From a virus: 42,001 nucleotides of DNA. Of this stretch, positions 4,309-41,788 are shown in pieces; the first letter of the stretch is position 1, and each line of letters opens with the position of its first letter. Position numbers and translations under genes: made by a program. The stretch is taken from IMG/VR virus record IMGVR_UViG_3300015263_000389, positions 1-42,001 of that record, one strand, 5' to 3'. Below the pieces are notes generated by a model. The model made no database searches and was not told where the DNA came from. It worked only from the letters and a program-made list of their open reading frames with translations.

Positions 4309-4376
4309 GGCTCCGCTCAGAGGCTTGCCAAGGTTTTACAAGCGCCAGGGAATGCGATACCCCAGTTGTGAACGGT

Positions 4377-5407: not shown

Positions 5408-5413
5408 GAACGC

Positions 5414-5442
5414 GTTATCCCTCCGATATTTTGCGTTGTCAA
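5414..5442 (-). promoter_or_regulatory. Sigma-70-like promoter candidate for leftward operon
   Basis: On the leftward strand a perfect TTGACA (5437-5442) is separated by exactly 17 nt from GATAAC (5414-5419, four of six matches to TATAAT). Transcription would start about 5407, which is the ATG of the nucleotidyltransferase; that would be a leaderless mRNA. It lies in the short divergent spacer where a promoter is needed. The prediction rests on consensus matching only. Confidence 0.45.
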
Positions 5443-5470
5443 TCATGGTCTATGCGTCAAGAGTGAATCC

Positions 5471-8842: not shown

Positions 8843-8845
8843 GTC

Positions 8846-9631
8846 ATGGATTACCAAGAAGGCAAAATAAGAAGCGTCACAGTTGGTGCTGTGACCAGAA
8901 AGCACGCCCACGTTCGCAACTTCCAGCTGATCAGGAAGCTGTCAACCGACGATTGGAACATCATCAGAATCGGTGTTGCATTCCACATGCAGAACGACAC
9001 TGAGAGATACCCTCTCATGGGACTTCGATTTTTTCTTGGCCTGTGCTCTGGAAACACCAACTGCATGGGCGATGCGACTGTAACCCATGCCGTCGGAGCA
9101 GGCACGCTGGCGCAGTCTCATGGAGGATACGAAGATTTCAGGATGCAGAGGATCGTTGGGACCGCAAACACGTTCGACCTGTATATGAACGGAGAGTCAA
9201 CCGGCGCGATGGTGTTCAAGGGCGATCCATACAATGCGGCAGTTCTGGCTTCTGGAACTCTGACCGCAACAATCGGTCTTGTTGGAACCCAGGATGGTCG
9301 AACTGGGACTCCATATGCCAACTACTTCAGGTGTTTCTTCGTCATTGAAATGGAAAGAGGATCTCCAAACTGGAACATCAGGGCAGGGTCTTATGCTCTA
9401 AACACGTCTCCAGCTCAGTATGCTGTGAACACTGCTGACGTGTTCAAAGAGCAGATGCTTGCACCAGACACAGGGGCAATATGGGCAGCTCACGCTCCAA
9501 CAAGCTGGACTACCAGGACGCTTGCTGTAGATGAGGCTGGAGACGGAACGCTCGATCACTTGAACTTGGTCTACGATGCTGAATTTCCGTCGATGTATGT
9601 TGACCAACTAATGGCAGTAAGGATGGCGTGA
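8846..9631 (+). CDS. Paralogous surface protein 2 of 3
   Basis: 261 aa. It repeats the family blocks: LRFFLGLCSGNTNCMGD leading to THAVGAG, then ANYFRCFFVIEMERGSPNW, and LAVDEAGDGTLDHLNLVY near the C-terminus, ending YVDQLMAVRMA where the first paralog ends YIDALVVAQIS. It is closer to paralog 1 than to paralog 3 in these blocks. The region between the blocks (residues about 90-160 and 170-210) diverges, as expected if it carries the variable surface. It starts 3 nt after the previous stop with no clear ribosome site, suggesting reinitiation. The structural role is inferred. Confidence 0.7.
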   Translation: MDYQEGKIRSVTVGAVTRKHAHVRNFQLIRKLSTDDWNIIRIGVAFHMQNDTERYPLMGLRFFLGLCSGNTNCMGDATVTHAVGAGTLAQSHGGYEDFRMQRIVGTANTFDLYMNGESTGAMVFKGDPYNAAVLASGTLTATIGLVGTQDGRTGTPYANYFRCFFVIEMERGSPNWNIRAGSYALNTSPAQYAVNTADVFKEQMLAPDTGAIWAAHAPTSWTTRTLAVDEAGDGTLDHLNLVYDAEFPSMYVDQLMAVRMA

Positions 9632-9632
9632 T

Positions 9633-10376
9633 ATGTCAGCAAACGTAAATGATATAACGATCAACTCGATCACCGAAAGGTTGGTCGAGTTAAGCGCTGG
9701 TCAGATCTTCGTTCCGCTGAATACAAACACGTGGGACAGACTCAGGGTAGCTGCTCGTATTTCGATGTGGAATGATCCTGGTGCTGCAGCTTCAACAGGA
9801 AGGTTTTTCCTTGGATTGTCCAACGGAAATGCTGCTGGCATGGGTGACGCAACTCCAGGACACTGCATAGGGTGGGGCAACTTTGACGTTACTGGCGCGT
9901 GGATGGCTATGTCTTCGCGAACTGTATCTGGGACGAGGGTCACATACGCTACCTCTGCATTTGCATATCCATGTAAGTTTGTATCTGGAACACCGACTGT
10001 AGCCTCTAGCTTTCTTCATTATACAAGGCTCAACGGTAACCTTGCAGCTCCTACATCTTGGAATCAGTCTTTTGTGACTGTTGAATTCACAAGAGCATCT
10101 CCAAACTGGGGTATATCTGGTTGTTGGAACACGAGTGTTTGCGAAAACGGAACATCGTATGATGCCAGAATCTTAGCTCAGAACAATATCAGGGGTGTTG
10201 CATCATCAAACACAGACTCATTCGCAACATGGGCTGACTACAACAATGAGCCACAGGTTACCGTTGCCGTAGATGAAGGAACTGATGGTGTATTGAATCA
10301 TCTACATCTTTACTGGAATCTATCGAGTCCATACATGAGAGTTCTAGATCTCATGGCCTTCGAGATTGCGCCTTGA
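9633..10376 (+). CDS. Paralogous surface protein 3 of 3
   Basis: 247 aa, the most divergent member. It keeps GRFFLGLSNGNAAGMGD then GHCIGWG, the SPNW box (RASPNWGISG), and VAVDEGTDGVLNHLHLYW before the end, YMRVLDLMAFEIAP. The N-terminal segment before the first block is different and longer in polar residues than in the other two. It starts 1 nt after paralog 2 stops, again with weak ribosome-site evidence. The three copies may build a hetero-oligomer or provide alternative binding tips. No recombination or inversion site was seen between them. Confidence 0.7.
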   Translation: MSANVNDITINSITERLVELSAGQIFVPLNTNTWDRLRVAARISMWNDPGAAASTGRFFLGLSNGNAAGMGDATPGHCIGWGNFDVTGAWMAMSSRTVSGTRVTYATSAFAYPCKFVSGTPTVASSFLHYTRLNGNLAAPTSWNQSFVTVEFTRASPNWGISGCWNTSVCENGTSYDARILAQNNIRGVASSNTDSFATWADYNNEPQVTVAVDEGTDGVLNHLHLYWNLSSPYMRVLDLMAFEIAP

Positions 10377-12830: not shown

Positions 12831-14351
12831 TCACACAGGCAGGAGGGAGGATTTCACGATCCTCCCTTCTGTTTTTCCCACCCGTGCATTCCACACGTCC
12901 TGCAGTAGCATCGCAGGCTCTTCGCCAGATAGGAGGTAGGTCAAGGAGTCGAATACGTGCCTGAACTTCGATGGTGCTATCGGCTTACTCAGCGTTGAAC
13001 CTGCACGCAACGCCTTGACCATCTCTATCGTCATCTTGCACTTCGCGCTGATCATGATCCTATCCTCATGCAGCAGCACCCTGAGCAAGTTGATTCGCTT
13101 CTGGATCGAGCCTGGGAACTTTGGAGCTGCCTGAAGGATCACGTTGGTCTCTGAGTATTTGTAGACCAGATTGGCGTCGTATCCCTCAGCGCCAGCCCTG
13201 TAGTTCGTCAGCGCAGCTGAGTCAGACCAATGCCTCCATACTGGCATCTTCTTGCACTGCCTGTTCCACAGATCGAAGTGCTCCATAAACTCATCGACAA
13301 ACTCTGACAGGCCCATATTGTCATCTGTCAGATGGTTCACTTCGTCGAGAATCCAGTAGATCTTTCCGTTTCCATCTCCAGGATCAATAACCTCAGCTAT
13401 GTGCGTGCTGTGATACTTGTCACCCAAGTCCCACCCGCTAAACAGTTGGTTGCAGTTCTCAGTTGGAAGGAGAACTTCCCAGTCGTCCTTGTTGACGAGC
13501 GAACAGTCACCGACGACATGGACTTCTTCCCTGAACTGCTCCCCGAATAGCGCACCCTTTGACGCTCGCGTCCACCTTCCTTCGATGTAGCGTGCGTATA
13601 GATCCTTGTCGTGGGCAAATCTCTGAATCAAAGCCTCTCGTTCCTCATCGCTCAGATACGGGTTGTCATGGATCATGACTTCGATCAGGGCGAGCTGCCT
13701 TTGCAGCGCTGGAGTCTTTGAGTCTTGGTCTACGCGATCCTCATACCACAGCTTGTAGATCCAGGAATCGGGTCCGTCGTCCGCAGGATTAGTGTCGGAC
13801 AGCCATAGGTGACCCCAAAAGTCCAACCCAGGCATCCGTAACTGATCCGACGTGATGTCAAAGACCAGTCTGCTCCTAAAGTTCGATAGCTCAGCGAAGT
13901 AGAACATGCTGAACCGGGTTCCCTTGGCGATTGATTCGACTTCGTTTTCATTGTCGATTGAGTGGAGCTGGATCTCGGATTCCCCTCCATACTGGTTAGC
14001 CAGACGGATATACATCATGCGCGTCTGAGCGTCCTGCTTCGGACCTAAAGTCCCATCGCTTTTCCTTGTTGTTATCTTGGTTGTCCTGGCGTCTAGCCAT
14101 TCTGGCAGAACAAGTTCGATGACATCATTCCACACTCCACCCGCCTTTGCGTTCTTGACGGTTTTGGCAAACATGCCAATTCTGGCTCGTGGCGTCTCAA
14201 CCGCATGCCGAATCAGCCTATGAAGATTGCCCCATGTCTTCCCAGACATCTTAGGGCCAGATGCAAGAATGCATCGTCCAGGGCTGTTGTAGATCTCCAG
14301 CTGTTTGGGCGAGAGTTCTGGATACCAATATCCCTGTGCGTCAATAGGCAT
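12831..14351 (-). CDS. terL: Terminase large subunit (TerL)
   Basis: 506 aa, the DNA-packaging motor: an N-terminal ATPase and a C-terminal nuclease. Walker A is G32-PKM-S36-G37-K38-T39. The Walker B position is FSMFYFAELSN with Glu154 in the catalytic place but Ala153 where the usual Asp sits. The coupling motif is LWLSDTNP (182-189). Nuclease acidic residues fit GWD308LGDKY, HWSD377SAA and RHVFD468SL, the three-Asp RNase H-like centre. Length is typical. It reads opposite to the portal, 42 nt apart from the next rightward start, so the spacer should carry divergent promoters; none was clear. No small terminase gene is adjacent. Confidence 0.95.
   Translation of the reverse strand: MPIDAQGYWYPELSPKQLEIYNSPGRCILASGPKMSGKTWGNLHRLIRHAVETPRARIGMFAKTVKNAKAGGVWNDVIELVLPEWLDARTTKITTRKSDGTLGPKQDAQTRMMYIRLANQYGGESEIQLHSIDNENEVESIAKGTRFSMFYFAELSNFRSRLVFDITSDQLRMPGLDFWGHLWLSDTNPADDGPDSWIYKLWYEDRVDQDSKTPALQRQLALIEVMIHDNPYLSDEEREALIQRFAHDKDLYARYIEGRWTRASKGALFGEQFREEVHVVGDCSLVNKDDWEVLLPTENCNQLFSGWDLGDKYHSTHIAEVIDPGDGNGKIYWILDEVNHLTDDNMGLSEFVDEFMEHFDLWNRQCKKMPVWRHWSDSAALTNYRAGAEGYDANLVYKYSETNVILQAAPKFPGSIQKRINLLRVLLHEDRIMISAKCKMTIEMVKALRAGSTLSKPIAPSKFRHVFDSLTYLLSGEEPAMLLQDVWNARVGKTEGRIVKSSLLPV
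12841..12876 (+). terminator. Rho-independent terminator for rightward transcripts
   Basis: The arm AGGAGGGAGGAT (12841-12852) pairs with ATCCTCCCTTCT (12859-12870), 12 bp with one G-U, loop TTCACG, followed by GTTTTT. It follows the rightward fibre block and lies inside the last codons of the leftward terminase gene. On the terminase strand the hairpin has no T-run, so it should stop only the rightward transcript. Confidence 0.85.
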
Positions 14352-26125: not shown

Positions 26126-27088
26126 ATGAGCTTTGGAATGCTCAACGCTGCTTTTGGTTCTGACAAACCGAACCTTGGAATGGTTACGGTTGTCAAGAAC
26201 AAGGAGATCCAAAAGCTTATCGACGAGGGAACCAGTCAGGCTGGGGCTACCCAAAAGGCAACAGCTGCAGGCGTAGAAGACTGGCGATCTCAGTGGCAGT
26301 CTCAATACCTGCCCACGATTCAGCGTCAAATGGGACAGGAGTCTGCTCTTCTTGATACCCTATACGGAGGCGGATTTGAGCAGAAGCTCGCTCAGCTACG
26401 GCAGGGTGAAGCGACTGCTCAAAACCGCGCTCTTGAGCAAACTCTTGGCAGGCTAAGGTCTGGGCAGGATTTGCAGCGTGCTCGCCTTGGTATCGGCGGA
26501 AGGAACACCCAGCAGGACATCATGGAAGCTCGCCTGATGAACGATCAGGCTACCAGAGTTGCGTTGCAGCAGGCGGCACAGGAGCGAGCTGACTTTGGCA
26601 ATTTGTGGCAGCAGCAGTTGGCTGGCATGGGACAACGTCAGGCAATGCAGGAGAAGCTTTCGACGATGCCTTTGCGCGAGGGGCAGATCATGGCCCAGGC
26701 GTATGCTACTCCTTTGCAGCTTGCTGAGCAGGTTCGGCAGATGGATGAAGCCAATAAGTTCCGCAGCCTCTATCGTAAGCGTGATGCGCTTGAGCGCCTG
26801 TCCGACATGGAACAGGTTGGAATGCAGCAACTCGGTCAGCTTACTGAGATGGCTGGCAACGTAGCATCAGTGGCTGGTGCATTCTGCTGGGTTGCTCGTG
26901 AGGTTTACGGTGACGAACGGTGGTTGCTGTTCCGTCATTGGATGCTCACCCAGGCTTGCGACGGGTTCTTCTATTGGTATGCAATGCTCGGTGAGAAGAT
27001 CGCCAGAGTCATTCATGGCGATGAGTATTTGAAGAGCTACATCCGTAACTGGATGAACACGAAGATCCGCAATGGCAATCGCAGGTAA
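26126..27088 (+). CDS. Internal virion protein candidate with CWVAREVYG domain
   Basis: 320 aa; GGAGG lies 9 nt upstream of ATG. Residues about 20-240 are a long helical, Gln-rich body (LRQGEATAQNRALEQTLGRL and similar). The C-terminal 70 residues, AFCWVAREVYGDERWLLFRH, WMLTQACDGFFYWYAMLGEK then IARVI, follow the Cys-x-Val-Ala-x-x-x-Tyr-Gly pattern that I recall at the C-terminus of many podovirus internal virion proteins. It overlaps the next gene by 17 nt. It probably leaves the head with the DNA or lines the ejection channel. Enzymatic activity is not implied. Confidence 0.7.
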   Translation: MSFGMLNAAFGSDKPNLGMVTVVKNKEIQKLIDEGTSQAGATQKATAAGVEDWRSQWQSQYLPTIQRQMGQESALLDTLYGGGFEQKLAQLRQGEATAQNRALEQTLGRLRSGQDLQRARLGIGGRNTQQDIMEARLMNDQATRVALQQAAQERADFGNLWQQQLAGMGQRQAMQEKLSTMPLREGQIMAQAYATPLQLAEQVRQMDEANKFRSLYRKRDALERLSDMEQVGMQQLGQLTEMAGNVASVAGAFCWVAREVYGDERWLLFRHWMLTQACDGFFYWYAMLGEKIARVIHGDEYLKSYIRNWMNTKIRNGNRR

Positions 27089-28304
27089 GCCAATCTACGC
27101 AGGCGACGTCAATACACTCGCTCAGCTTGATCTGCAGCGATCTATTGCACAGTCAAAAGCAACTCAGGAAGGCATTGCTGGTGCCAGTCGTGGAGTTGGA
27201 AATCTCCTCAGCCAAAAGCAGCAGGAGCAGTATGGAAAGCTCAAGGGTCGAGAGCTTGACATCCAGGAAGGTCAGCAAGAGCGAGAAGACAAGGAGCGCA
27301 TGGAGCGCTACACGTTCGAGTCTGCTCAGCGTGCTGCTCAAGAAGGTTTGCTGGATGCTGACCAGCTCGAAAACATTGCCCCAAGCTTCAAAGATCCAAC
27401 CCGTCAGGCAATCATAAAGGAAGAAGCAAATAGGCTTCGTGGGCTTGAAGAGACGATGGATGAGGAAGGTCCTCAGATTGCCAACAGACTGAACCAGTTC
27501 ACTGGATACGAGCAAAGAACCCTGCAGAGAGCGCGTGAAGATTTGGCGAAAGCTGAGCAGGGATGGAAAGTCCCTGGAGTCGGCTGGGGTCCTGGGTCAC
27601 AGGCTAACATTGAGGATGCTCAGAACCGCGTAGCGATGGCTGAGGCTGCAATCGCAGCCAAGGAAGCTCAGATCTACGAGGCGTATCCACAGTATGCAAA
27701 CAGACTTCAGCTTGGCGAAGGTGGATACACCTATCTTCCTCGAAGCGGTAAAAGAAGGGGCATGGGATCTCAGGCTGATGTTCTTCCTCCAGCTGGTGGA
27801 GCTGCACAGGGTATAATGGTTGCCCCTCAAGAGCCTGTTGTTGGTGCGGATATCCTTCCAGAGGACCAGGGTTATGCTCCTCCTACTGGTCAACCAAGCG
27901 CAATGGCTCCTGATGTTCTTCCTGCTGCTGAATTTCCAAGGTCTGCGCGAGGAACAACTATGCCTCGGTCAGCTCCTCCGACAGGACCAGTTGCTGGCAG
28001 GGGTTCACGCAGAGCAATAGGGCCAATCCTTGGAACGCCTACAGGGCGAAATCCTCGTGGTGCGTATCGCCCATCTGCAGTTCAACAAGTCCAGCCGACG
28101 ACTGAGACAGCAACAACTCCTAGCCAGGAAACGCCTAGCCAAGGACTATTACCTGCTAACATCTCAGACCGGCTCGATCAGGAGACACTTAACGAGTTCT
28201 ACTCGCGAATGGCTCAATTCCAGAGACAAGGTATGTCTTTAGATGAGGCAAGACGCCGCGCCGGTCTGTGGCTAAAGCAACAGATTGACGCGGAGGTTTT
28301 CTAA
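27072..28304 (+). CDS. Internal virion protein candidate, helical with Pro-rich half
   Basis: 410 aa. The first about 210 residues are helical and rich in Gln, Glu and Lys (SQKQQEQYGKLKGRELDIQE, GLLDADQLENIAP), the second half Pro/Ala/Gly-rich and disordered (PEDQGYAPPTGQPSAMAP), with a short helical end (LNEFYSRMAQFQRQGMSL). It overlaps the previous and next genes (17 and 1 nt). Such mixed helical and flexible proteins next to giant internal proteins are typical of ejected protein sets. No catalytic motif is found. Confidence 0.65.
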   Translation: MAIAGKPIYAGDVNTLAQLDLQRSIAQSKATQEGIAGASRGVGNLLSQKQQEQYGKLKGRELDIQEGQQEREDKERMERYTFESAQRAAQEGLLDADQLENIAPSFKDPTRQAIIKEEANRLRGLEETMDEEGPQIANRLNQFTGYEQRTLQRAREDLAKAEQGWKVPGVGWGPGSQANIEDAQNRVAMAEAAIAAKEAQIYEAYPQYANRLQLGEGGYTYLPRSGKRRGMGSQADVLPPAGGAAQGIMVAPQEPVVGADILPEDQGYAPPTGQPSAMAPDVLPAAEFPRSARGTTMPRSAPPTGPVAGRGSRRAIGPILGTPTGRNPRGAYRPSAVQQVQPTTETATTPSQETPSQGLLPANISDRLDQETLNEFYSRMAQFQRQGMSLDEARRRAGLWLKQQIDAEVF

Positions 28305-31300
28305 TGCCTGAGTCATACGATCCCTTCTCTGATCTCCAAGATCCAAATGTAGCCGTATCTGAACCTCCGTTGCCTCCTGCCCCAGGCAGGCCAGCCGCGC
28401 CTCAAGAGCAGCAATTCGACAGAAAGCAATTTGTCGTTGATGTCCTTGAGGACATTGAGCGGTCGCCTGAGTATCAGGCATACAAGCGCAACAGAAAGGA
28501 GGCAGCGCTAAAGGAGGAGCTGCGCCAACAGCGTCAAAGGACGGCAGACTTTGGCGAGTCTGTTCTTGGCAACCTCCTACACCTTAAAAGCGGTGACCTT
28601 CAGCTTGCCAAGATAGGCGCGATCTTCAGCGGTTGGGCCAACAGGAAGCTTGGAATGCCAGAGGCTGCTGCGGTAGCAGACCGCAAGGCAGATGAATATC
28701 GACAAGAGCAAAAGGAGATTCGGTCTGCTATCGACGGTCTGAATATGGGTGCTGTTGCAAGGACAGCAGGTCAGTTCGGAGAGTCGTTCATTGTTTCTTC
28801 TCCAACGCTGGTGGTTCCAGGAACAGCTGCTACCGCTGCTGCGCGTGCTGGGTTAGGTGTGGCTGGAGCGAGCATGGTTGGGCTCGGAGCTGGCGCTGGT
28901 GTCGGCGGTGGGATCTCTGGCATCTCTGTCTATGACGATGCTCGCGATCAATACATCGCTCAGGGATTCTCAGAAGAAGAAGCCAGCGAGATGGCCAAGT
29001 ATCCAGGCTGGGTGTCTGGTATTGGAACAGCAGCTATCACTGCGTTGTTCGGACGCACTGGTGTTGAACGCAGCGCATTCCTCAAGCTTCCGAAGGACAA
29101 GGTAATTGGAGTTCTGCGTCAGGTTTTCAATCAGGCTGGACTCGAAGGTCTTGAGGAAGGTGCTGATGAAATCTACCAAAAGATCACCGGCTACCTCACC
29201 TACCATCCTGACATGCCTGTTGAACAGGCAATATCGGAGGTTGGAGCAGCGTTTGGACTTGGTATGGCAATGGGCGGCGGCGTTGAGATCCTTGGTCAGA
29301 TCGTCAACATGTCCCCTCCTGAGATCAAAGCTCTCAATGAGAGGGAGTTCCCACGTCCACAAGAAAGGCCAAAGACACGAAAGGAAGCTGAAGGCTCCCC
29401 AATTCTTCCAGCGTCTACTCCGAAGCAGGGACAGACCAAGCCTACAGTCAAATCTGTTCAGTCCAATGAAGAGGCTGCTCGCCAGCTGTGGGGAGCAATG
29501 AAGCCTGAAGAAAGGCTGAAGGTCATTGGTCCTCAAGGTGCAGCTGCTCCACTACCTCTTGAGGCAATCAACTGGGAAGATCTGACTGAGGAAGAGCAGC
29601 TCAAGGTCTACGACCAGTTCAATCTGAGCGTTGAACCAGTTGGAGGCAGGATACCCGCAACGGCTCCTGCGATGCCAACAGCTGAAGATCTTGCTGAAAA
29701 CGAGAGACTAACCAAGGCCATGAGAATGTCCTTGATTGGGTCTCCTGAGCATGAAGCTGCTTGGGCAGCTAAGGAACAGCTCAAAGCCAAATACGGTGGG
29801 CATGATCTCACCAAGATTGGGACAGAGGTTCCAGTGGCTGAAGCTGCCGCACCAGCTGAACCAACTGCTCCTGGAGATCAAGCTTGGGCTACGAGGCTAT
29901 CTCCAAGCGACAGCTTGGCAGTCAGGAGTGCTGAACCTATTGATCCAACCACAATAACCAGCGTCACCAAAGATACGAACGACGCTGGTCAGACTGTGTA
30001 TGCGATCATATACGACAACGGAAAATACATTGGATACGATGACAATCCAGCGTGGGAGCTTCATCCGTTATTTGGAAAGAAGATAACTCCTGCAGCTCCT
30101 GCAGCTCCTGCTGAGCCTGGAGCACTGGCTAACCATGCTGATCAAGTCACCGTTCCTCAAGGCATCCCTGCTTCTGAGAATACTGCCTACAGATCTCTTG
30201 AGACCAATCCCCAGATTACTGTCGAAGAGTTTGCTGGCATGGATAACGAGCAACGCGCCAACCATGCTCGGTCGATTGGTCTAAATGCTACAGGTCTGTC
30301 CTACGCTGTAGGTCACAATGCAACCGTTACCGAGAATGATATCCTTCTCCTCAAGACTGCATACGATCAGGCTCGCGCAAGAGGCCAACAGCTTGCTGAT
30401 GAATCTTCGAAGAGGACGCTGACAGACGCTGAGCTGAACGAGTTGTCTCAGCTTGGTCAGGTTGAGAACGCGATGGCTGAGGCCATTGGTGCTGCCACTG
30501 ATACAGGCAGCGCTGGGTTCACACTGCGCAAGCTGCCGAATTACAGGCCGAACTTCAGGGGTCTGATCAATGAGCCGAAGAGGCAGTCAAACCAGCCAGA
30601 GGTTAAGGCAGCCAAGAACCGGGCAGTCACTGAGGTAACTGCACAGACATCCGATATCCCCACCACTCTTGCCACAAACCTCCCAGACGACCAGGAGCAG
30701 CTCGCTCGCGAGCAGGTGTTCAAAGGACTGAAGCCTGCCGAGTTCAGCCCAGCCCAGGCAAAGATCTACAAGGGCAGAGACAGGGCTAATTACGACAAGC
30801 GCGTGCTTGAGCTTAGGGCTCTTGCCTTCATCGCACCTACCCTGGCGCGTGGTGAGACTCTTGTGTTCCCTGACACCGCTACGCTTGGGAAGATCAAGAA
30901 GAACCATCCTGGCATATACAGACTCTTACAGGATGAGATTTCTAGGCTTACGACTCCTCCAAGGGCAGACACTCCGTCCCAGGAGGCGGCTGCATCGACT
31001 CCCACTCAAGACCTTCCGAAGAACGAGGATCAGTCTAACCCTCTCAGCTTGAAGGAGATGAGCAAGTCTGCTGTTGAGCATTTCATCTCAACGCTCAACC
31101 TTCTGAAGCAGGCTGCAGAGTCAAAGGTCAGATCAGCTAAGCACGTCAAGAAGCAGAAGAGCGTCCTGGCGAAGCAAGGGAAGACCTTGAAGGAGTTCAA
31201 AAAGGTCCAAGCCCTGCACGCTGAAGCACTCCAAGAGGTATCCAGAATCGAAAAGCGGGTTGCCGGTTTGAGGAGCCAGCTCGCAGAAGCCGCCGCTGTT

Positions 31301-34300
31301 GCGCCTACGGCTGAGAATGCGCGGTCTATCCTGACCACCCTGGTGTCCAGGACCCAAAACAAGTTACGGCTCGCCAGAATCAATTCTCAGCGTTTGCAGG
31401 AGCAGCACGATTCCCTGATCGCTCAGGCTCAGGCAGCACTTGATGCAGTCCCAGTCGGTCCAGCAAGCCCAACCACCCTGGCTAAGATCGCTGATCTCAG
31501 GGCAAGAGCTGAGACTCTTGGCAAAAAGAAGATGGCTCAGGTCAAGACCGTTGAGAGCCTTCAGGCAGAGATCAAGGAATACCAGCGCCAGATCGAGGAC
31601 ATCAAGAGGATGCCCAAGGATGCGCCCATTGATCGCGAAGCTATCAGATCTCAGATCAAAGACCTTGAGGCTCGACGTCAACGTGTATCAGAAAAAATTC
31701 CAGGCAGGGCTGAGGCGATGGATACCCTGCGTAAAAGGTTGGTAGACTTGGAGTTGCAGTATCGCAAGGCGTTCTTGGAAGAGGTAGATGAGCGATCTGG
31801 TGGCAAAGTCTCCGAGTTCATGCAGAAGCGAGAGGCTGCTGGTGCTGAATACAGAGGAACATCATGGGCCATTGCAAACATCAGGGCCGCATTGGCGACA
31901 TACGGATACCAGTTCGATGTCCAGCCATACGTGAGGAAGTTCGTAGAAAGGGAAGTCACTGATCCTGTCACTGGTCAAAAGGCAGTCATTAAGGAATACA
32001 CCAGACGTATCGGTGGGACAGTAGGGGCGGTAATTGCTCAGAGACTAAGGGCTGGCGATGTTGAGGTTGCGGAACAGTTTGAGGCTAATGACTTTCTGAC
32101 TATCAGACCAGTTCCAAACTTCTTCGTAAGAGAAGGTGAGGAGATCAACTGGCCAGAAGCCGCCAAGTCTTTCCTGACGCTGATCGAGAAACCAACAGAA
32201 GCCCAGAAGAAATCTGCTGAAGGCGTTACGAGTTCAGACTCATTCGTTGCGTGGTTTAAGGAGAACATCGTTCCAGCCGTCATGGGGATTCAGGAGCGTT
32301 TGTCGAAGGCTGAAGCTGCTTTGACTGAACTGCAAAACAGCGTGTCTGACTTCGGGCTGACCAAGCAGTCGACGTGGTCCTATGATGCGAAGTCGAACGA
32401 ATTCAAGTGGGGCATTGACTCGTTCCTGGCACCAGATCCGAACTACGTGGTCTGGATGTCTGAGATCAACTCACGAAGCCCTCTCGGTTCTGACCCTTCC
32501 AGCACCGTTGTAATCCCTCCTGGAGCAGGGCAGAGCTTGCCGCTTGAGCCAGACTTCGAAGGTGAACAGGTCAAGATTCCGCATGTTCACCCTGGAGATC
32601 GCCCTCAAACCAAAGAGGGTATGTTCAACCCTGGCAAAGGAGACGTCACGTGGCAGATCGCATACTACACCCAGGATGATGATGGCAGGATGGGTGACAC
32701 GATTGTGGTCTTGCAGCGCAGCCATCATAGGGTGTTTCACATCGTCACGATTAAGGATGGTGTTGTCGTTGAAGATGTTAGGGCTCCTCAAGACAAGACA
32801 ACTGGACGGACAAACTACAAGACAGCTGTCCAGGCTGCTCAGTCAAAACTCCAGGGTAAGATTCAGTCTGCGTTCTGGACAGCTGAGCGAGGTTTCCAGA
32901 TCCCAACTGTCTACAGCCTGTCTCCTCTCACTGATGGAACAGTTCCTTCAAACGTGAGTGGGCAGGGAAGCGTTCTTTGGACTCCTGCCGTAGAGCTGGA
33001 CAGTATCGAGGATGCTCTCTATCGAGCTGCTGCAGCTGGTGAACTCCGACCAGGGATGAGCAAGGATGCCATCTCTAAGGCAGTAACCAAGGCTGTTGCT
33101 GGCATAAGCCCTTGGCACTATAGCGCTTACAAAAAGAGCTTCCAGGCTCAGCGCTATTGGAGATCTCAAGCCGAGAACATCATTCGCAACGCTACACAAG
33201 ACGCGATCATGGCGACACAGATCGCCAGTTCTGGTCGAAAGCCAAACACTGAAGTTCTCGCACGGGCATTTGGAATCGCAAACCCAACATTCACGCCGAA
33301 GAAGATGCCTAAGCTTGAACTGGCTCAAGCTGAATACATCAGAAGGGCTCTGAGTGTTCCACGTGGAACAACGGACTTCCAGGAGACAGTCGAAGTTGAA
33401 TCGACGTTTGAAGTCAAATACCCGCGCACGACGCAAACCAGAGAGAACGGTTCTCGCGTTGTGTCAATCGAGCTGGATCATCCGACAGCACCAGCCGTTT
33501 TGGGGACTCCGTATTTCAGAAGGACTACGCCGCTGGTAGCCAAGCAGGAAGACTCAATCATCATTACCAAAGATGGCAGAGCATACGGATGGTTCGTGTT
33601 TACTGAAGCCACCACAGCTGCTGAGAAGACCAACATCTTCGCAACAATCGACGGAAATCCATCTGCCACTGCATACACTGAGACAGTCACTAAGCGTGCA
33701 CCGCGCATGAAAATGGACCCCGCTGACAGGGTGGAGCACGCTGAGGATTATCTGCAATCTCGTGTTGTTCAACGACTTGAGCAGCCAACGAACAATCCTA
33801 CCACCCAGCAGCTTGCAGCTGAAGCCGCAGCTACGGTCGACAAGCTTAGAGAAACGAAGACTGGCAGAGATATTCTGCAGAACTTCCTTGAGGATGCGCG
33901 TGATGTCCGACTTGGCAGAAGCCGGTTCGTCAACAACATGCTGCGGCTCTTCAACACTGCTTCATTCAGTGAGCAATACGCCGTTCAGGTTGATGACAGC
34001 ACAGTCGAGCGATACGTGGATGTCTCCATTCCAAACGTGATGGAGAAGACCAGGGTTCTGGTCGAAGCAAACACCACCAACGAAGAGGCGTATGCTGCTG
34101 CTGTTTCCCAGTTGGTAGACCAGATGTCGATGGCTGTGTCTCCACAGATGCTCAGGATATTCGGAGTCAGTGGAGCTACCTACAGCGAGATGTCCTACGA
34201 GCCAAACCTGGACGGCTACGTCAGGCTCAAGAAGGGCATGGAGGCTCCTGAGAACCGCGTTCGAATCAAGGAGCTGAACGACATTGCTGACCTGGGCAAG

Positions 34301-37300
34301 AACCACCCAAGCTACAAGCTGGTCAAGGGCAGGTTCACGATGGGTGTTGGGTATGAGCGCATGGCTGAATTGCTTGCGGAGGTTGGGCTTAACCCAAGCC
34401 TGCTGACAAAGCCGAAGCCGGGTCAGAACGTGCAGCTTGAGTTCGTTGGGGACGATGGCGTGACCAAGATCATGCACACCATCGCGACTCCGAAGACCAA
34501 TGAGCGTGTGCTGCGTAGGAAGACGAAGGCTGGCAAGGTTGTCGAGACGAAGATTCCGTTCGAGTCTGTGGTGGTTGGAAAAATGTTCGACTACTACGTC
34601 GAACGCATCCAGCAGATCTACAAGCGCATCCAGGATCATCAGGTAGCCAGGGCAAACATGAAGGCTCTGGTTGCAAGAAGGCTGTTCGCTGAGGCTTTCA
34701 GGCTTCCAATCATCGAAGGTCCGTTTAAGGGTGTTCTCCTTCAGGCCAAGAACCAGCAGAGGAATCCAAGACATCAGATGCTTGGGCGAGCCAAGGCTGT
34801 CATCGGGGCAGAGCAGGCTGCTGCTGGAAAGAAAGCTGAGGAGGAATACCTGCCTGAAATTGATACGAGCGGCTTCTACGAGTATCGACTCGTCAGCAAT
34901 AAGATCTGGACGAAGGCCAAGTTCGAGACCGACGAAAACGTCAAGTTCCAGGCGTCATTCATTCCGCTCGGAACTGTTTTGCTTCAGGTTGAAAGCGAAG
35001 GCGAGTTCCACAATCGTCAGACAGTCAGCACCAACGCAATGGAGGCTGAGGAGGTTGAGCTTGAGCGAAAGAAAGGCGAGACTGACGAGGAATATGAAGA
35101 GCGAGTTGAGATGGCAAAGCTCAAGTCTCGCTTTGATGTTAAGGCTGTAGAAGCTTTCTTGGCTGTAGAGAAACAGCCTAAGACAGGACGACACTTTGCA
35201 CGCATAGTCATTCGCGGTGGAACTAAAGCAAAGCCTGAATGGGAAACTATCTACCGCGTAGACCTTCAGAAGCTTCAGAATAGCGGACTTGCAAAACCAT
35301 TTACCAAAGAAGAAACCAAGAGTGGGAAGACTGATGGCTGGTATATCAACAGGCATGCAGTCAACAACTCTGCATGGTGGGAAGTCGCTAAGCCTGATAG
35401 GCGTGACTATCTGAGTCCTGAAGACTTTGCAAACTACTATCCACACAAGCTCGGGCTTCTTCCTGGAGATGTGCTTGCACAGGCTCGGTGGGTTTCGATG
35501 GTGTCTGAAGGAAGTGATGCAGAGAGAATCATCAATGAGCGCGTCAGTGGATTGAGCAGCACATCGGTAGGGACGTTCAATCAGAAGATCACTGAAGCTG
35601 CACCAGATACATTCTCTGCTACCCGTTTCAACATGGAAGATGTTGAGGGTGGAAACTTGATGGATTGGCTTGAGGAGAATCTAAGCAAGTCAGCCAAAGG
35701 TATAGAGATCCTCAAGCGTATTCACTCCATTGACCCTCTTGCTGAGTTGACACCTGAAGGTAGAGATCCTTGGCAAATCGTCAGGGATGAGATCCTTGTC
35801 ATAAACGGAATTCCTATTGGCAAGGATGCTACTAAGACTCAGGAACAGCTTGCTCTTGCTGACAAGATTGAGAAATCTCTGAATCGGGTTCATGAGTCTC
35901 GCGTGTCTGGTGGTGTTCAATTCCGTGGCGGTGGTCGCAGGACACGCATAAGCGATGTCAATCCAGACGTCATCAACAAGCCTGCTATAGGCAAGGCTGC
36001 AATTCGCGAGCTGATCAACACTGAGAACAACGGATTAAGCCCAAGAGCGAAGCGGCTTGCCAACCTGATGCTCGATGTGCTTCCTGATACGATCCTTGAA
36101 GATCTTACGTTTGTGATCACTCCTGGATACGAGATCGGCAACGACGCGACAGTCGAATACACCGGGTCATTTAGCCATGCTTGGAGAATCGCAAGGTTCG
36201 TCAGCACATCTGGAAGTGTTCACACAGCTGCTGAGGAACTCGCGCATGCTGCTGCCATGTTCCTTCCTGCTGAGCACAAGGGAGCCGTTGAGGAATATCG
36301 GCAAATTGAGATACGTCAGGCTCTTGAGAACCCAACCACTCCTGAGATCGTAAAGACTTTCCTGAAGGACATGGAGGCTAACGGTGGTGCGTTCACCAGT
36401 GAAGACTTCATGCACCGCAGGGGTAATCAATACCTGCTGCCTTACTACCACCTGATCAACACAGATGAGTTCTTTGCCCATAACATGGTTGCTGCCACTG
36501 ATCGTAAAGGCAGGACAAACCTGCAGAAGGCAGTTGATAAAGCAAAGAGCATCATCTCTGGGTTCCTGAAGGGAATCAAAAAGGCGATGCGCATGATGAA
36601 CGCGCAGCGCGATTCTTACTTCGACGAACTGATCGCCAAGTTCGAAGCCGGTGACTTTGAGGTTACAGCCAACGGTGGGTTCTTGCATGAGATCAATAAG
36701 GACGTAGACATGGGCGCTGTTGCCGTCGCGTGGACTGCTGGTCAGGTCAAGCGCCAAGCAGAGACTATCCCAGTTTCTACTGCGGGTGGTCCTGCTTTGG
36801 CGTTTACCAAGGCGCAGCGAGGGACTGTAATCGCGGCTGGAAATGTAGAACCATATACCATCCTTTCCGCCCTTACTGCCAAAAGAGAGGCACAAGGAAG
36901 AAAGCTCAGCGCAAAGGCAAAGCAGATCTGTCTGATCGACAACTTCCAAGAAGTGATCGAAACCGTCCGTAATGTGTTCAAGGTTCCGATTGGACAGTTC
37001 AAAGACACGATCACCAATCTTCCAGCTGTATGGCTGAAGGAACAAACAATCTTAGCTGCAAGCTCGTCCGTGAACTTCATACGCGAGCGAATGAACAAGG
37101 TTAAGAAAGCCAGGGATACATGGATGGCTAAGCTAACGTCTCCTAAGTTCATTCAGGACATGAGGAAGTTTGCTAAGCTGAAGATCGAGGTTCTTGGCCA
37201 AGAGGCAATCGCTGCAAGACTCGAAGAGCGCATTAAATCTCATCTTGCTTTGCTGCGTGCGCGTCTTGCAGATCCGAATCTTGATCCCAACAGCCCATTG

Positions 37301-40300
37301 GCAGCCAATGCAGCTCGCGAAATAGATCTTTATGAATCATATATGACCTACTCTATGGGCATCGCCCAGAAGGTAGAGCAGATGATCACAGCATTATCGC
37401 TGACTGAGCAGGGCAACGAGCTGCTGCAGAATCCTTGGGGAAATCTTGATCCTCGCGCAGTAACGAAAGCATATAAAGACACTGCTCCTCCTCCAGAACA
37501 GCTTCAGGTTGGCAATGCAATCATAGAGGCAGCTGCATACTTCATAGCAACTGAACCAGCTATAAGGCAGTTGATGGCAGCTGCTGTGTATCAGGCTGAC
37601 CCTGAAGTAGCAAACTTGACTGATCAGTTGACGATGGACATGACCAACATGATGGACGAGTTGGTCAAAGCTCCAGCTGGGTTACGTGCAGTCGGCAAGG
37701 GCGACGACTTGGTTAACAAGTTCATGCGTCTGATCAGAGCCACGCAGAAGTCGACTGCTGCCGAGACGAAGGCAAAGACTGTTATGCGAGCGCAGCAGAT
37801 TAAGCTTCGTAAAGTGATCAACAGGGCTCAGATGCTTGATGAAGCATACGAGTTCTACCAGGAGCTGATGGCAGATCCTGATTGGATCGCATACGAAGGT
37901 GAGATTGCCGATCTTGCTGGTGCTCTTCACATTCCAGAGAACTGGAAACATGTCGGTAGCGATCCTGTGTCAGGCATTGTGAAGATGCCGCTTCCGATGA
38001 CTGCTCCGAAGGTAACGACCAGTGGAACTGAGAACGCATACCATGTTGTAAAACTGCACGACAACTTGGCCAGATGGGAGGCTGAGCGCGTAAAGGTTCA
38101 GGAGTCCATTGATCAGATGACTCAGTGGCTAGTAAACAATGGCAACGATGAAACTCTTGATGCCAAGTATTTCAAGTCGATGATTAAGTATGGGCAGATG
38201 CTGCTCGACTCATCCTTGGTAAACGACATCCAGGGCAATCACCAGGGTGGGTTCAACTTCATCAACGCGATCTTCAATAAGTGGACCGCAATGTGGGAAG
38301 GTATTGCTCGTTCGGCTCCAGTGCGTGCAATTCAGAATTCGCGTATTGCTGTCAGAGCGTGGAGCGATTCGATGTTGCTCATGAACAAGTGGTATCAGAA
38401 GTGGGGTGATCGGATTGCAACACTTCTGCATAAAGCCACAGACTCTCACAGCGACATCGTTGATATCAGTGACAGAAACAAGTCTGTCTACGACTGGTTC
38501 AATGAGGTAGGCAGAGAATTGTTCCACCTTGCCAACGAGGGATACGATCCGAAAGCAGGAGATACTCTTCCTGATGCTCAGATAGAGATCACGCAGGACG
38601 ATATCAACTGCCTAAAGGAAATGGTTACTGCAGCAGACGAGGCATACGAGATTGATGTCACGCGAGGGCGAGAAGTAATTCCTTCAAGGACCGTAACTGA
38701 CGAGTTCATTCCTGGAATGCCGTATCAACGTCGTGCTATGAAGCTTGTTCAATACATGCTTCCACGCACGTTCAACAAAGCTGCAATGGACTTTACTAAG
38801 AAGTGGCTCATTGAGCATGCTGGTTACGACGCTGATCGTAATAACTACAGTTTCAGGGATATGGCTGGAGCTACTGAGCTTCTCGATCAGCACTGGTATC
38901 TGTTGAAGGCGTTCCTCAGCGACAGAGACCTTGGTTTCACTGACAAGAAGAGCCCACTGGAAGTAGGTGCATACCCGGCATTGCTTGAAAAGATCAGAAA
39001 TGAAGAGATAACCAACGTAGAAGACTTCCTGGCTGCGCTCGATACGTTCAGCATCACTGAAGAAAACTTCGATGCACGACAGCAGTTCTGGAAGGACTTC
39101 TTCCATCTGCAGAAGGGAATCTACAATAAGGCTGTTACTGACAAATCGTCAGAGACGGATTCACAGCGTAAAGGGGTTTACATTCCATTCGAGCAGGAGA
39201 ACTCATTCACGCGTGGTCGCGGTCAAAGGATCGCGCCGTATGCATGGTATAATCACGGATTCCACAGCACGGCACAGACAATGTCGTTCATGCTGAATGG
39301 ATCTTCCCACTATCTGAACTGGGTAAGCAGATCAGTAGAGGACTCTATCCTTGTATTGAAGGACATGCAGGACGATTACCAGAAACGCATTGATGCGTTG
39401 GAAGGAAAGAGAGAGCCGAGTAAGGAGACAAGGAAGCGTAGGCTGATTGAGGAAACCAAAGCGAATCGTCAGGCGATGCGCCTGAACGAGGAGCGAATTA
39501 AGCTTGAGGATATCGACAGCACTATCAAAGCGCTAAGAGACTTCAGAACTGAACTTCAGAAGGTATTCGCCTCTGAAGGTAAGCTGCTTGAAGAAGAGAC
39601 GCTGCAGTGGAACAGGTTCTTTGGCCTGTATATGGGTGGTGCTATCTCAAGCTTCCGCACTGGCATTCAGAACATGCTGCAGTCAGCAATCGGTTACTCG
39701 TCTTGGAGGTTGCAGCGTCTGCGTGGTGGAATCTTCAGTGTGTGGCCACAGCATGCGTTTAGGCTGACCTGGGATCTTGCACAGATGGCACCATACTCAG
39801 CTATCCGTGCAATCTACGATGCTGCTCCATTCATTGGGAAGGTGCATTACATCAAAGCTCTCAAGGAAATGGGCATGCTGTTCAGCGTGTCGAACTATCA
39901 GAAGTATGGTCTGGCTAACATCCCTCGTCAGGTAACGCTCACGTTGAATGAGTTGTTCTCTGACATGGTTCAAGACCTTGCTGATGGAGCGTGGAAGCGA
40001 GGAAGGATCTACAGAGAACTCGCAGAGCGCGGACTTAACAACCCGTTCAACACACGCTACCACCTTGAGTCGGTTGCGGAGTCGTTCACAAGCCTTGGAA
40101 GGATTACATACAAGGAGACTGACAAGCCTGTTGCTGCAGAAGGTCCTGTTGATTGGGTGTGGAAACAGATGTGGAACGTGCTCAAGACTACCGGCAAGGG
40201 TATGCTTGGAGCTGTTGATATCGGCATGGCGCTTACGATAAGGCCATTCCTTCCTCGCGCTGGTGACATGATGGCTAATCAGGTTGCAGCTGAGACAGTG

Positions 40301-41788
40301 TTCTCAGCTATGCACGCAGTAGAAAGCAGCCTTCGGCACAACTACCTGAGAGCTAAGGATCGTGGTGCTGATCCTCGCATCGTTGGAACAATTCTTCCAA
40401 CTGATGTGCTGCCGCGTTGGTTCAGGCTTCCGCGCAACAATCTGTCGGCGCTGTCTGATCTGAAAAACTGGTTCCAAGGTGCTGCTGTTGATCTCAAGGG
40501 CGCAATCAATGACTTCTATGATCGCCTTGATGCTGCCGGTGATGATCCGAAAGCTCTTGGTGAGGTTCGGTTCCTTGATCATGAGCAGATCTGGACTCTT
40601 GCGCAGCAGCATCTTGAGGATGTTAACGTGGCAACGCCTGCCAACCGTCCAGCCATCGCAAAGCGGAACACGATCAACCGTATTCTGTTCGCACTCAAAG
40701 GATGGAGATGGAACATGTTCAGCAAGATCATGGACATGATGGGTGGTGCCATGATGAAGCATGAGAGCGTGGCGCTAAGAGCATGGGAGAAGTTTGGAAA
40801 TATGTATTACATCCTATCCGCAGCAGCCATCGGTGGTCTCGCTGGGTATTGGTTGTTGGAGACGCTGACAAGGGCGATCTACCTTGCGCTATTCGGAGAG
40901 ATCCGAAGCGTCAGAAAGCTTGAGGATGTGTCTGCTAAGCCAACCGAAGTTGCTGTCGGAATGGCATCCATCGTTCCGTTCCTCGATACCGCTGTGAACC
41001 TCACGTTCAACACGCAGCCTTCCAAGGCAAGATTCAGTCCTGGAAGTCTGGTCGACAGCATGATGCTTCAGGTCATGAACTACGTTGCTGGTGCATACAA
41101 CAGCAAGGATCTGACTTACGGTGTCGACCGCGCTGTCGTGACGTTACAGCCGACAATCGGCAAGCTTGTGATGAACAGGATGCCGGGTGCTACCGGCAAG
41201 ATCGAGAACTGGAATGCCAGCAGGCTCCTGATCAGGCATGGCGAAGATTCGTGGCTCAGGGAGTCAAGGTTCGGTGGTCAGATGTCTGGAATGTTCGTGA
41301 CTCCATACACGCCAATCGCTGACCGCATGGTGAACGCAGCCATGCAGAACGATATCGGAAGGGTCCAGGAAGAATACATGGACGGCGTGACTCAGATGGT
41401 GATGAACGAGAACATCCCATACGAGGAAGCCCAGCGTCGTATGCGTCAGATGTTCACCAGTCGCAATCCATACGACCGCGCATACAAGCGCAGGCTGACA
41501 TCTATGGAAAGGGCTCAGGTCCTCAACAAGATGGACATGGACGACAGGGACAGAGTCCAAGCTGTTGAGCGCAAGTTTGAAGCAGCAGCCAACGCCATCG
41601 GCGCGAACGTGAACTTCGAAAAGCAGGAGCGTCTGTTCAAGGCTGGAAAGACAGCAGTATCGCGGTTGCAGGCCATTCGAAAGCAGAGACGTGCAATGCT
41701 CATGAGCAACTCTGCAGCTCGCAGGGCGAGCATAAACATCATGGATCGCAGTCGTGGACTGTTGACTCGTGGACGAGTCTTACTATGA
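28304..41788 (+). CDS. Giant 4494-aa virion/ejection protein, polyvalent type
   Basis: One uninterrupted frame with GGAGG 7 nt before ATG. Layout: residues 1-140 polar helical; about 165-250 Gly/Ala-rich, membrane-like (AARAGLGVAGASMVGLGAGAG); 280-331 ends LEGLEEGADEIYQKITGYL then Gly-rich, a common beginning of giant phage proteins; 340-760 linkers with Pro/Ala; 916-1166 long coiled coil; 1170-2560 unrecognised; 2590-2740 zincin-like segment with EELAH; 2800-4150 helical regions; 4166-4203 a hydrophobic segment (YYILSAAAIGGLAGYWLLET); basic end LLTRGRVLL. Known giant phage proteins (N4 virion RNA polymerase, polyvalent and internal core proteins) enter the host with DNA; I find no RNA polymerase motif. 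It is a virion component by location and size; specific activities are unproven. Confidence 0.85.
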   Translation: MPESYDPFSDLQDPNVAVSEPPLPPAPGRPAAPQEQQFDRKQFVVDVLEDIERSPEYQAYKRNRKEAALKEELRQQRQRTADFGESVLGNLLHLKSGDLQLAKIGAIFSGWANRKLGMPEAAAVADRKADEYRQEQKEIRSAIDGLNMGAVARTAGQFGESFIVSSPTLVVPGTAATAAARAGLGVAGASMVGLGAGAGVGGGISGISVYDDARDQYIAQGFSEEEASEMAKYPGWVSGIGTAAITALFGRTGVERSAFLKLPKDKVIGVLRQVFNQAGLEGLEEGADEIYQKITGYLTYHPDMPVEQAISEVGAAFGLGMAMGGGVEILGQIVNMSPPEIKALNEREFPRPQERPKTRKEAEGSPILPASTPKQGQTKPTVKSVQSNEEAARQLWGAMKPEERLKVIGPQGAAAPLPLEAINWEDLTEEEQLKVYDQFNLSVEPVGGRIPATAPAMPTAEDLAENERLTKAMRMSLIGSPEHEAAWAAKEQLKAKYGGHDLTKIGTEVPVAEAAAPAEPTAPGDQAWATRLSPSDSLAVRSAEPIDPTTITSVTKDTNDAGQTVYAIIYDNGKYIGYDDNPAWELHPLFGKKITPAAPAAPAEPGALANHADQVTVPQGIPASENTAYRSLETNPQITVEEFAGMDNEQRANHARSIGLNATGLSYAVGHNATVTENDILLLKTAYDQARARGQQLADESSKRTLTDAELNELSQLGQVENAMAEAIGAATDTGSAGFTLRKLPNYRPNFRGLINEPKRQSNQPEVKAAKNRAVTEVTAQTSDIPTTLATNLPDDQEQLAREQVFKGLKPAEFSPAQAKIYKGRDRANYDKRVLELRALAFIAPTLARGETLVFPDTATLGKIKKNHPGIYRLLQDEISRLTTPPRADTPSQEAAASTPTQDLPKNEDQSNPLSLKEMSKSAVEHFISTLNLLKQAAESKVRSAKHVKKQKSVLAKQGKTLKEFKKVQALHAEALQEVSRIEKRVAGLRSQLAEAAAVAPTAENARSILTTLVSRTQNKLRLARINSQRLQEQHDSLIAQAQAALDAVPVGPASPTTLAKIADLRARAETLGKKKMAQVKTVESLQAEIKEYQRQIEDIKRMPKDAPIDREAIRSQIKDLEARRQRVSEKIPGRAEAMDTLRKRLVDLELQYRKAFLEEVDERSGGKVSEFMQKREAAGAEYRGTSWAIANIRAALATYGYQFDVQPYVRKFVEREVTDPVTGQKAVIKEYTRRIGGTVGAVIAQRLRAGDVEVAEQFEANDFLTIRPVPNFFVREGEEINWPEAAKSFLTLIEKPTEAQKKSAEGVTSSDSFVAWFKENIVPAVMGIQERLSKAEAALTELQNSVSDFGLTKQSTWSYDAKSNEFKWGIDSFLAPDPNYVVWMSEINSRSPLGSDPSSTVVIPPGAGQSLPLEPDFEGEQVKIPHVHPGDRPQTKEGMFNPGKGDVTWQIAYYTQDDDGRMGDTIVVLQRSHHRVFHIVTIKDGVVVEDVRAPQDKTTGRTNYKTAVQAAQSKLQGKIQSAFWTAERGFQIPTVYSLSPLTDGTVPSNVSGQGSVLWTPAVELDSIEDALYRAAAAGELRPGMSKDAISKAVTKAVAGISPWHYSAYKKSFQAQRYWRSQAENIIRNATQDAIMATQIASSGRKPNTEVLARAFGIANPTFTPKKMPKLELAQAEYIRRALSVPRGTTDFQETVEVESTFEVKYPRTTQTRENGSRVVSIELDHPTAPAVLGTPYFRRTTPLVAKQEDSIIITKDGRAYGWFVFTEATTAAEKTNIFATIDGNPSATAYTETVTKRAPRMKMDPADRVEHAEDYLQSRVVQRLEQPTNNPTTQQLAAEAAATVDKLRETKTGRDILQNFLEDARDVRLGRSRFVNNMLRLFNTASFSEQYAVQVDDSTVERYVDVSIPNVMEKTRVLVEANTTNEEAYAAAVSQLVDQMSMAVSPQMLRIFGVSGATYSEMSYEPNLDGYVRLKKGMEAPENRVRIKELNDIADLGKNHPSYKLVKGRFTMGVGYERMAELLAEVGLNPSLLTKPKPGQNVQLEFVGDDGVTKIMHTIATPKTNERVLRRKTKAGKVVETKIPFESVVVGKMFDYYVERIQQIYKRIQDHQVARANMKALVARRLFAEAFRLPIIEGPFKGVLLQAKNQQRNPRHQMLGRAKAVIGAEQAAAGKKAEEEYLPEIDTSGFYEYRLVSNKIWTKAKFETDENVKFQASFIPLGTVLLQVESEGEFHNRQTVSTNAMEAEEVELERKKGETDEEYEERVEMAKLKSRFDVKAVEAFLAVEKQPKTGRHFARIVIRGGTKAKPEWETIYRVDLQKLQNSGLAKPFTKEETKSGKTDGWYINRHAVNNSAWWEVAKPDRRDYLSPEDFANYYPHKLGLLPGDVLAQARWVSMVSEGSDAERIINERVSGLSSTSVGTFNQKITEAAPDTFSATRFNMEDVEGGNLMDWLEENLSKSAKGIEILKRIHSIDPLAELTPEGRDPWQIVRDEILVINGIPIGKDATKTQEQLALADKIEKSLNRVHESRVSGGVQFRGGGRRTRISDVNPDVINKPAIGKAAIRELINTENNGLSPRAKRLANLMLDVLPDTILEDLTFVITPGYEIGNDATVEYTGSFSHAWRIARFVSTSGSVHTAAEELAHAAAMFLPAEHKGAVEEYRQIEIRQALENPTTPEIVKTFLKDMEANGGAFTSEDFMHRRGNQYLLPYYHLINTDEFFAHNMVAATDRKGRTNLQKAVDKAKSIISGFLKGIKKAMRMMNAQRDSYFDELIAKFEAGDFEVTANGGFLHEINKDVDMGAVAVAWTAGQVKRQAETIPVSTAGGPALAFTKAQRGTVIAAGNVEPYTILSALTAKREAQGRKLSAKAKQICLIDNFQEVIETVRNVFKVPIGQFKDTITNLPAVWLKEQTILAASSSVNFIRERMNKVKKARDTWMAKLTSPKFIQDMRKFAKLKIEVLGQEAIAARLEERIKSHLALLRARLADPNLDPNSPLAANAAREIDLYESYMTYSMGIAQKVEQMITALSLTEQGNELLQNPWGNLDPRAVTKAYKDTAPPPEQLQVGNAIIEAAAYFIATEPAIRQLMAAAVYQADPEVANLTDQLTMDMTNMMDELVKAPAGLRAVGKGDDLVNKFMRLIRATQKSTAAETKAKTVMRAQQIKLRKVINRAQMLDEAYEFYQELMADPDWIAYEGEIADLAGALHIPENWKHVGSDPVSGIVKMPLPMTAPKVTTSGTENAYHVVKLHDNLARWEAERVKVQESIDQMTQWLVNNGNDETLDAKYFKSMIKYGQMLLDSSLVNDIQGNHQGGFNFINAIFNKWTAMWEGIARSAPVRAIQNSRIAVRAWSDSMLLMNKWYQKWGDRIATLLHKATDSHSDIVDISDRNKSVYDWFNEVGRELFHLANEGYDPKAGDTLPDAQIEITQDDINCLKEMVTAADEAYEIDVTRGREVIPSRTVTDEFIPGMPYQRRAMKLVQYMLPRTFNKAAMDFTKKWLIEHAGYDADRNNYSFRDMAGATELLDQHWYLLKAFLSDRDLGFTDKKSPLEVGAYPALLEKIRNEEITNVEDFLAALDTFSITEENFDARQQFWKDFFHLQKGIYNKAVTDKSSETDSQRKGVYIPFEQENSFTRGRGQRIAPYAWYNHGFHSTAQTMSFMLNGSSHYLNWVSRSVEDSILVLKDMQDDYQKRIDALEGKREPSKETRKRRLIEETKANRQAMRLNEERIKLEDIDSTIKALRDFRTELQKVFASEGKLLEEETLQWNRFFGLYMGGAISSFRTGIQNMLQSAIGYSSWRLQRLRGGIFSVWPQHAFRLTWDLAQMAPYSAIRAIYDAAPFIGKVHYIKALKEMGMLFSVSNYQKYGLANIPRQVTLTLNELFSDMVQDLADGAWKRGRIYRELAERGLNNPFNTRYHLESVAESFTSLGRITYKETDKPVAAEGPVDWVWKQMWNVLKTTGKGMLGAVDIGMALTIRPFLPRAGDMMANQVAAETVFSAMHAVESSLRHNYLRAKDRGADPRIVGTILPTDVLPRWFRLPRNNLSALSDLKNWFQGAAVDLKGAINDFYDRLDAAGDDPKALGEVRFLDHEQIWTLAQQHLEDVNVATPANRPAIAKRNTINRILFALKGWRWNMFSKIMDMMGGAMMKHESVALRAWEKFGNMYYILSAAAIGGLAGYWLLETLTRAIYLALFGEIRSVRKLEDVSAKPTEVAVGMASIVPFLDTAVNLTFNTQPSKARFSPGSLVDSMMLQVMNYVAGAYNSKDLTYGVDRAVVTLQPTIGKLVMNRMPGATGKIENWNASRLLIRHGEDSWLRESRFGGQMSGMFVTPYTPIADRMVNAAMQNDIGRVQEEYMDGVTQMVMNENIPYEEAQRRMRQMFTSRNPYDRAYKRRLTSMERAQVLNKMDMDDRDRVQAVERKFEAAANAIGANVNFEKQERLFKAGKTAVSRLQAIRKQRRAMLMSNSAARRASINIMDRSRGLLTRGRVLL

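Follow-up and report, generated by a model that had tools for sequence, protein, structure and literature searches.

A giant phage protein with two modules in common with the N4 virion RNA polymerase and a variable middle part

The giant gene and its surroundings

The window, which is the whole stretch of 42,001 nucleotides analysed here, is part of the 76,545-bp contig IMGVR_UViG_3300010412_000005, with which it shares 99.96% identity and which has a 144-bp terminal direct repeat. One reading frame, P0001, takes up 32% of the window and about 18% of the whole phage genome. It closes the late gene cluster, in which the portal, scaffold and capsid genes are assigned by position and size only, and is followed by glycosyltransferase-like and other non-virion genes. 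The window also codes for a tail-collar protein and a 791-aa virion structural protein. The features of the locus are listed below, those within the giant protein also by amino acid (aa) position.

12831..14351, minus strand: terminase large subunit (Pfam Terminase_3 and Terminase_6N), the query used for finding relatives
26126..27088, plus strand: 320-aa gene, proposed from its position alone as a small ejection protein
27072..28304, plus strand: 410-aa gene without cysteine, proposed from its position alone as a second ejection protein
28304..41788, plus strand: giant ORF P0001, 4,494 aa, ATG start, TGA stop, intact
28712..29431, plus strand: N-terminal Gly/Ala-rich module, aa 137-376, of which aa 212-330 (28937-29293) match N4 gp50 323-438
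29432..33424, plus strand: slot 1, first part, aa 377-1707, no similarity found
31130..31894, plus strand: SMC-type coiled coil, aa 943-1197 (NCBIfam, E 4.5e-5)
33425..35713, plus strand: slot 1, second part, aa 1708-2470, co-linear with relative L128 and from 2293 weakly also with L101
35711..36643, plus strand: zincin-like module, aa 2470-2780, matching N4 gp50 C1 (2147-2364)
36233..36247, plus strand: EELAH motif at the HExxH position, aa 2644-2648, aligned on N4 HELVH
36458..36478, plus strand: NTDEFFA motif, second active-site-type helix, aa 2719-2725, aligned on N4 NEFMA
36641..41623, plus strand: C-terminal chassis, aa 2780-4440, predicted to be mostly helical, conserved in all relatives
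41576..41785, plus strand: basic tail, aa 4425-4494, with 15 R/K and 4 D/E

The giant ORF is a genuine gene, because its length is far beyond chance, its GC content by codon position (58/42/55%) is gene-like, synonymous differences are in excess and complete giant homologues exist. Compared with the 76.5-kb sister contig it differs in 14 codons, 11 of them synonymously and three non-synonymously (pN/pS 0.08), and P0001 is under purifying selection. The ATG is preceded by GGAGG and overlaps, within TAATG, the stop codon of the 410-aa gene in front of it. A preliminary description of the sequence, which had reported a single 4,494-codon frame filling a third of the window and preceded by a good ribosome site, was thus exact with respect to position and is confirmed on both points. 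The membrane-like segments that it had placed at both ends are weak: the Kyte-Doolittle maxima at 182-200, 4170-4188 and 4216-4234 reach no more than 1.41-1.46. Its large stretches free of recognisable motifs held up against Pfam, PHROGs, NCBIfam and PADLOC, where P0001 obtained coiled-coil matches only and no family name, but profile-profile comparison recognises two modules. Sequence searches of the PDB gave matches at chance level only, and tblastn searches of 50,697 phage records with P0001, the portal, the terminase and the tail protein gave no match.

P0001 contains two cysteines, whereas the cysteine rate in the rest of the late genes predicts about 50 (approximate Poisson P, 2e-19). 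The same phage uses cysteine freely elsewhere, with 20 residues in its 791-aa gene. Cysteine is missing altogether from nine N4-type virion RNA polymerases (vRNAPs) and from most relatives of P0001. This loss is consistent with unfolding and refolding across the envelope; other long helical virion proteins may be similarly poor in cysteine.

Relatives, constant regions and exchange slots

At least 13 further giant relatives, all in uncultivated phages, were found through terminase relatives in IMG/VR and scans guided by chassis profiles; the complete frames code for 2,955-4,833 aa, and fragments occur as well. Two scans of GTDB genomes with the terminase and chassis profiles gave no relatives. 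Constant regions were located by windowed phmmer comparison at approximately 137-376 and 2470-4440. Judged from these alignments, the relatives share a chassis that consists of the N-terminal Gly-rich module, the zincin-like module and the C-terminal third, while two slots vary. The nearest chassis are those of L101, L102 and L128 (27-31% identity). The model of the C-terminal chassis is helical but of low confidence (pLDDT 58.7) and too poor for a fold search. Basic C-terminal tails recur in the relatives, although their strength varies.

Slot 1, between the N-terminal and zincin-like modules, is about 2,090 residues long in P0001; in the relatives its length is estimated at roughly 560-1,870. 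Its first part (aa 377-1707, about 1,330 residues) has no match in any relative compared. The second part aligns with L128, with a blastp E value of 7e-5 for 1708-1946 and hhalign scores of 50.5 and 46.6 versus 22.7 for the reversed control. A tblastn search of plasmids with residues 1181-2466 gave no match. Disorder-like linkers occur at about 331-410, 481-560 and 591-650, and the long coiled coil noted earlier is recovered at 943-1197, which resembles an SMC coiled coil. The middle part, about residues 1170-2560, had been regarded as the most obscure. Some of it is indeed unmatched, but the limits were misplaced: the unmatched residues are those from about 377 to 1707 and residues 1708-2470 are shared with L128, and therefore the most obscure range shifts upstream. 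Residues 2470-2560, far from obscure, open a module that ranks among the most conserved in P0001.

Slot 2 sits within the zincin-like module, between the EExxH helix and the NxDEF helix, and in P0001 runs from EELAH to NTDEFFA. From motif to motif, P0001 spans 75 residues and L101, L102, L061, L105 and L128 span 74-122, versus 482-1,729 in L062-L065 and L104. According to Iyer et al. (2017, PMC5512222), the metallopeptidases of polyvalent proteins have variable inserts at exactly this place, between the two helices. An ART-PolyVal domain was matched within the slots in four of the 11 family members scanned (best E 1.5e-6); the scores of L062 and L104 are under the Pfam curated cut-off. The slots of L104 contain DUF7178 (E 9.5e-10) and a match to a tRNA-methyltransferase PHROG (E 1.1e-18). 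In this protein, the largest of the relatives (L104:1884-16385, plus strand, 4,833 aa), the zincin-like module is interrupted by an insertion of about 1,650 residues, to which DUF7178 and the methyltransferase-like domain belong. By eye, a ParB-like stretch (VNGNHRYRAA) can be read in L061 and a methyltransferase-like stretch in L062 and L063.

Relation to the N4 virion RNA polymerase and other known systems

N4 gp50 consists of an N-terminal domain, the RNA polymerase (998-2103), a C1 domain with HExxH (2124-2375) and a helical C2 part (2376-3500; PMC12633501). Profiles were built from nine N4-type vRNAPs (L109-L117), with the best of 60 column shuffles and the reversed profile as controls. 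The N-terminal module (aa 212-330 against N4 323-438) scores 45.4, versus a shuffled maximum of 16.8 and 20.6 for the reversed control, and the zincin-like module (aa 2575-2777 against N4 2147-2364) scores 41.6, versus 18.1 and 26.1, respectively. The match of the C-terminal third to N4 C2 is marginal (33.8, shuffled maximum 29.1) and not co-linear.

In N4 the slot between these modules is filled by the polymerase, whereas none is apparent in that of P0001. Against the N4 RNA polymerase profile, the cargo of P0001 yields hhalign scores of 18-22, which is noise, versus 319-555 for five left-out vRNAPs, and both the N4 motif-B pattern and a DxDGD-type motif are absent from P0001. An RNA polymerase as cargo was rejected on these noise-level scores against the positive-control vRNAPs. 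When 11 window genes were compared by profile with nine N4 families, no homology to the N4 portal, capsid or terminase was detected: the scores were noise, and the highest (26-27) were off-diagonal. The gene order resembles that of N4, but synteny as a sign of homology was dropped since it has no profile support. With two modules matched, the polymerase absent and the N4 virion genes undetected, profile comparison indicates that P0001 has two modules and their order in common with the vRNAP but is not a vRNAP itself, and that its phage is not a recognisable Schitovirus. Because the head and tail genes lack detectable N4 homology, the link to N4 may reflect shared modules and not a common origin of the whole system. 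The suggestion in the preliminary description that P0001 be compared with the N4 vRNAP was thus fruitful for the N-terminal and zincin-like modules, whereas the polymerase is excluded at good sensitivity.

Further likenesses concern size (3,022-3,616 aa in the nine vRNAPs, 4,494 aa in P0001), the long C-terminal part that follows the two modules, and the position of the gene, which in both cases comes last in the structural cluster, after smaller genes. The proteins differ in the spacing of the zincin helices, which in some relatives of P0001 is widened by insertions ranging from hundreds of residues to over 1,600, and in the motif itself, which is HExxH in N4 and EELAH in P0001. HExxH is not found in P0001. 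Most of the family retains the module without the first zinc ligand, with Glu in place of this His (EExxH) in 12 of 15 members; the other three (L062, with HEIAH, L106 and L141) and the nine vRNAPs have HExxH. The conserved Glu of the second helix is present in P0001, where NTDEFFA aligns on NEFMA. An AlphaFold model of the module, of fair to good quality (mean pLDDT 77), shows two strands and the two helices, but Foldseek searches with it against PDB and BFVD found nothing at E < 0.001. Because the motif is EELAH and not HExxH, protease activity of this module is doubtful. The module may instead be a hinge or an attachment site that tolerates inserts.

P0001 also resembles the polyvalent proteins, which, according to the sections of Iyer et al. 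(2017, PMC5512222) drawn on here, are very large, adjoin virion genes and have a zincin-like hub domain. Its size and position agree with those proteins (>1,000-2,000 aa beside late virion genes), and its relatives contain ART-PolyVal and methyltransferase-type domains. The combination of several disparate domains in one polypeptide is seen in the relatives, whereas no named polyvalent family domain exceeds the threshold in P0001. The earlier assignment to polyvalent or ejected proteins thus has a basis in the family, though no domain of P0001 itself can be named. Those sections of PMC5512222 describe no phage lineage in which polyvalent proteins combine a constant chassis with two defined exchange slots. 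By position, P0001 is also comparable to the T7 gp16 and P22-type ejection proteins: its gene ends a row of three adjacent candidate ejection genes, of which it is the largest. Its length is about three times that of T7 gp16 and, unlike the latter, it has no Pfam or PHROG match to a lytic transglycosylase.

Possible role of the giant protein and further genes of the phage

The best explanation, with a probability of roughly 0.7, is that P0001 is a polyvalent protein packaged in the virion and ejected from it, built on a chassis like that of the N4 vRNAP but with other cargo. It is supported by the position at the end of the late cluster, the at least 13 relatives with conserved ends and variable middles, the ART-PolyVal, methyltransferase and DUF7178 matches in the slots of relatives, the profile matches to N4 and the loss of cysteine. 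The zincin-like model without a fold match, the missing first metal ligand, the marginal link to C2, the head and tail genes unlike those of N4 and the lack of a named enzyme domain in P0001 speak against it. From gene position, cysteine loss and homology we infer that P0001 travels with the DNA. It would be packed in the head and exit together with the DNA, the helical C-terminal third probably keeping it in the head and escorting its exit, and the N-terminal module probably entering or crossing the inner membrane. P0001 would then deliver whatever its slots contain. The putative cargo in slot 1, situated where N4 has its polymerase, comprises residues that are mostly of no known kind and partly coiled coil, and would most likely be an early-acting activity that aids the takeover of the cell.

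Among the alternatives, an ejected protein of purely structural function deserves some weight but is improbable. The middle of P0001 would then be a spacer or a coiled-coil part of a DNA channel without enzymatic cargo, as might be suggested by the coiled coil at 943-1197, the disorder-like linkers and the lack of any enzyme family found in P0001; ejection proteins of the T7 type do form a channel (PMC8954989). However, recognisable enzyme-type domains occur in the slots of several relatives, and residues 1708-2470 are conserved with L128 and of mixed composition. Length, helical content, weak hydrophobic stretches and low cysteine content would also suit the tape-measure protein of a long-tailed phage, and such proteins can bear peptidoglycan-cleaving motifs (PMC1796659). 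This reading is quite unlikely, since P0001 is not followed by a tail module, inserts of the ART and methyltransferase types would be unexpected in a ruler, and the N-terminal and zincin-like modules match the vRNAP of N4, an ejected podovirus protein. No distal-tail or baseplate genes occur 3' of P0001, where the neighbours are glycosyltransferase-like and other non-virion genes. As there is no obvious long-tail module, the phage presumably has a short tail.

An unpackaged protein that acts late in the cell, for example in assembly or lysis, has very little probability in view of the profile link to modules of the packaged vRNAP, the cysteine depletion and the location at the end of the structural cluster. 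Least credible is a strongly diverged RNA polymerase, which would make P0001 a virion RNA polymerase after all. Such a cargo would occupy the N4 polymerase slot, and no polymerase was seen among the ORFs of the rest of the phage genome; it is nonetheless strongly disfavoured by the gap between the scores of its cargo and those of the left-out vRNAPs and by the two missing motifs.

The ejected polymerase of N4 might be one case of a wider delivery chassis, made up of the N-terminal and zincin-like modules with a long C-terminal part, that phages use to eject interchangeable cargo, the cargo of P0001 (377-2470, chiefly 377-1707) a new activity without known relative, and the zincin-like module a second place where large enzyme domains can be inserted. 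This extension is tentative and stands below even odds. The passage of a 3,500-residue protein through a narrow phage tail has yet to be explained, and the structural study of N4 reports no structural relative for C2, the large C-terminal part of the vRNAP (PMC12633501). Proteins that have parts of their ends in common but differ in the middle help to tell delivery parts from cargo parts: features common to vRNAPs and these giants are likely related to delivery, which is testable, and the 1,330 unmatched residues offer a defined site to seek a new early-infection activity.

The remainder of the phage genome codes for RecT, a PD-(D/E)XK nuclease, a tyrosine recombinase and an AAA ATPase, and the phage may be temperate and rely on replication enzymes of the host. 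The first three genes lie together at L059:5600-13235 of the same phage genome, with no polymerase seen there. The terminal repeat of the sister contig falls inside the window (window 4317-4461 against G001 1-214); at this repeat 69 bp (G001 145-213) are absent from the window, which may be an assembly artefact or a short tandem difference. Neither tRNAs nor Rfam families were found in the window. Three consecutive genes at window 8075-10376 code for proteins of 255, 261 and 247 aa that look like paralogues by eye and share the pattern FLGL.SGN....GDAT..H..G; they are possibly receptor-binding or decoration proteins. At window 4910-5446 (minus strand) lies a gene for a nucleotidyltransferase of the heptose-adenylyltransferase type (CTP_transf_like, E 2.5e-8), which together with the glycosyltransferase-like genes 3' of the giant gene possibly forms a surface-sugar set.
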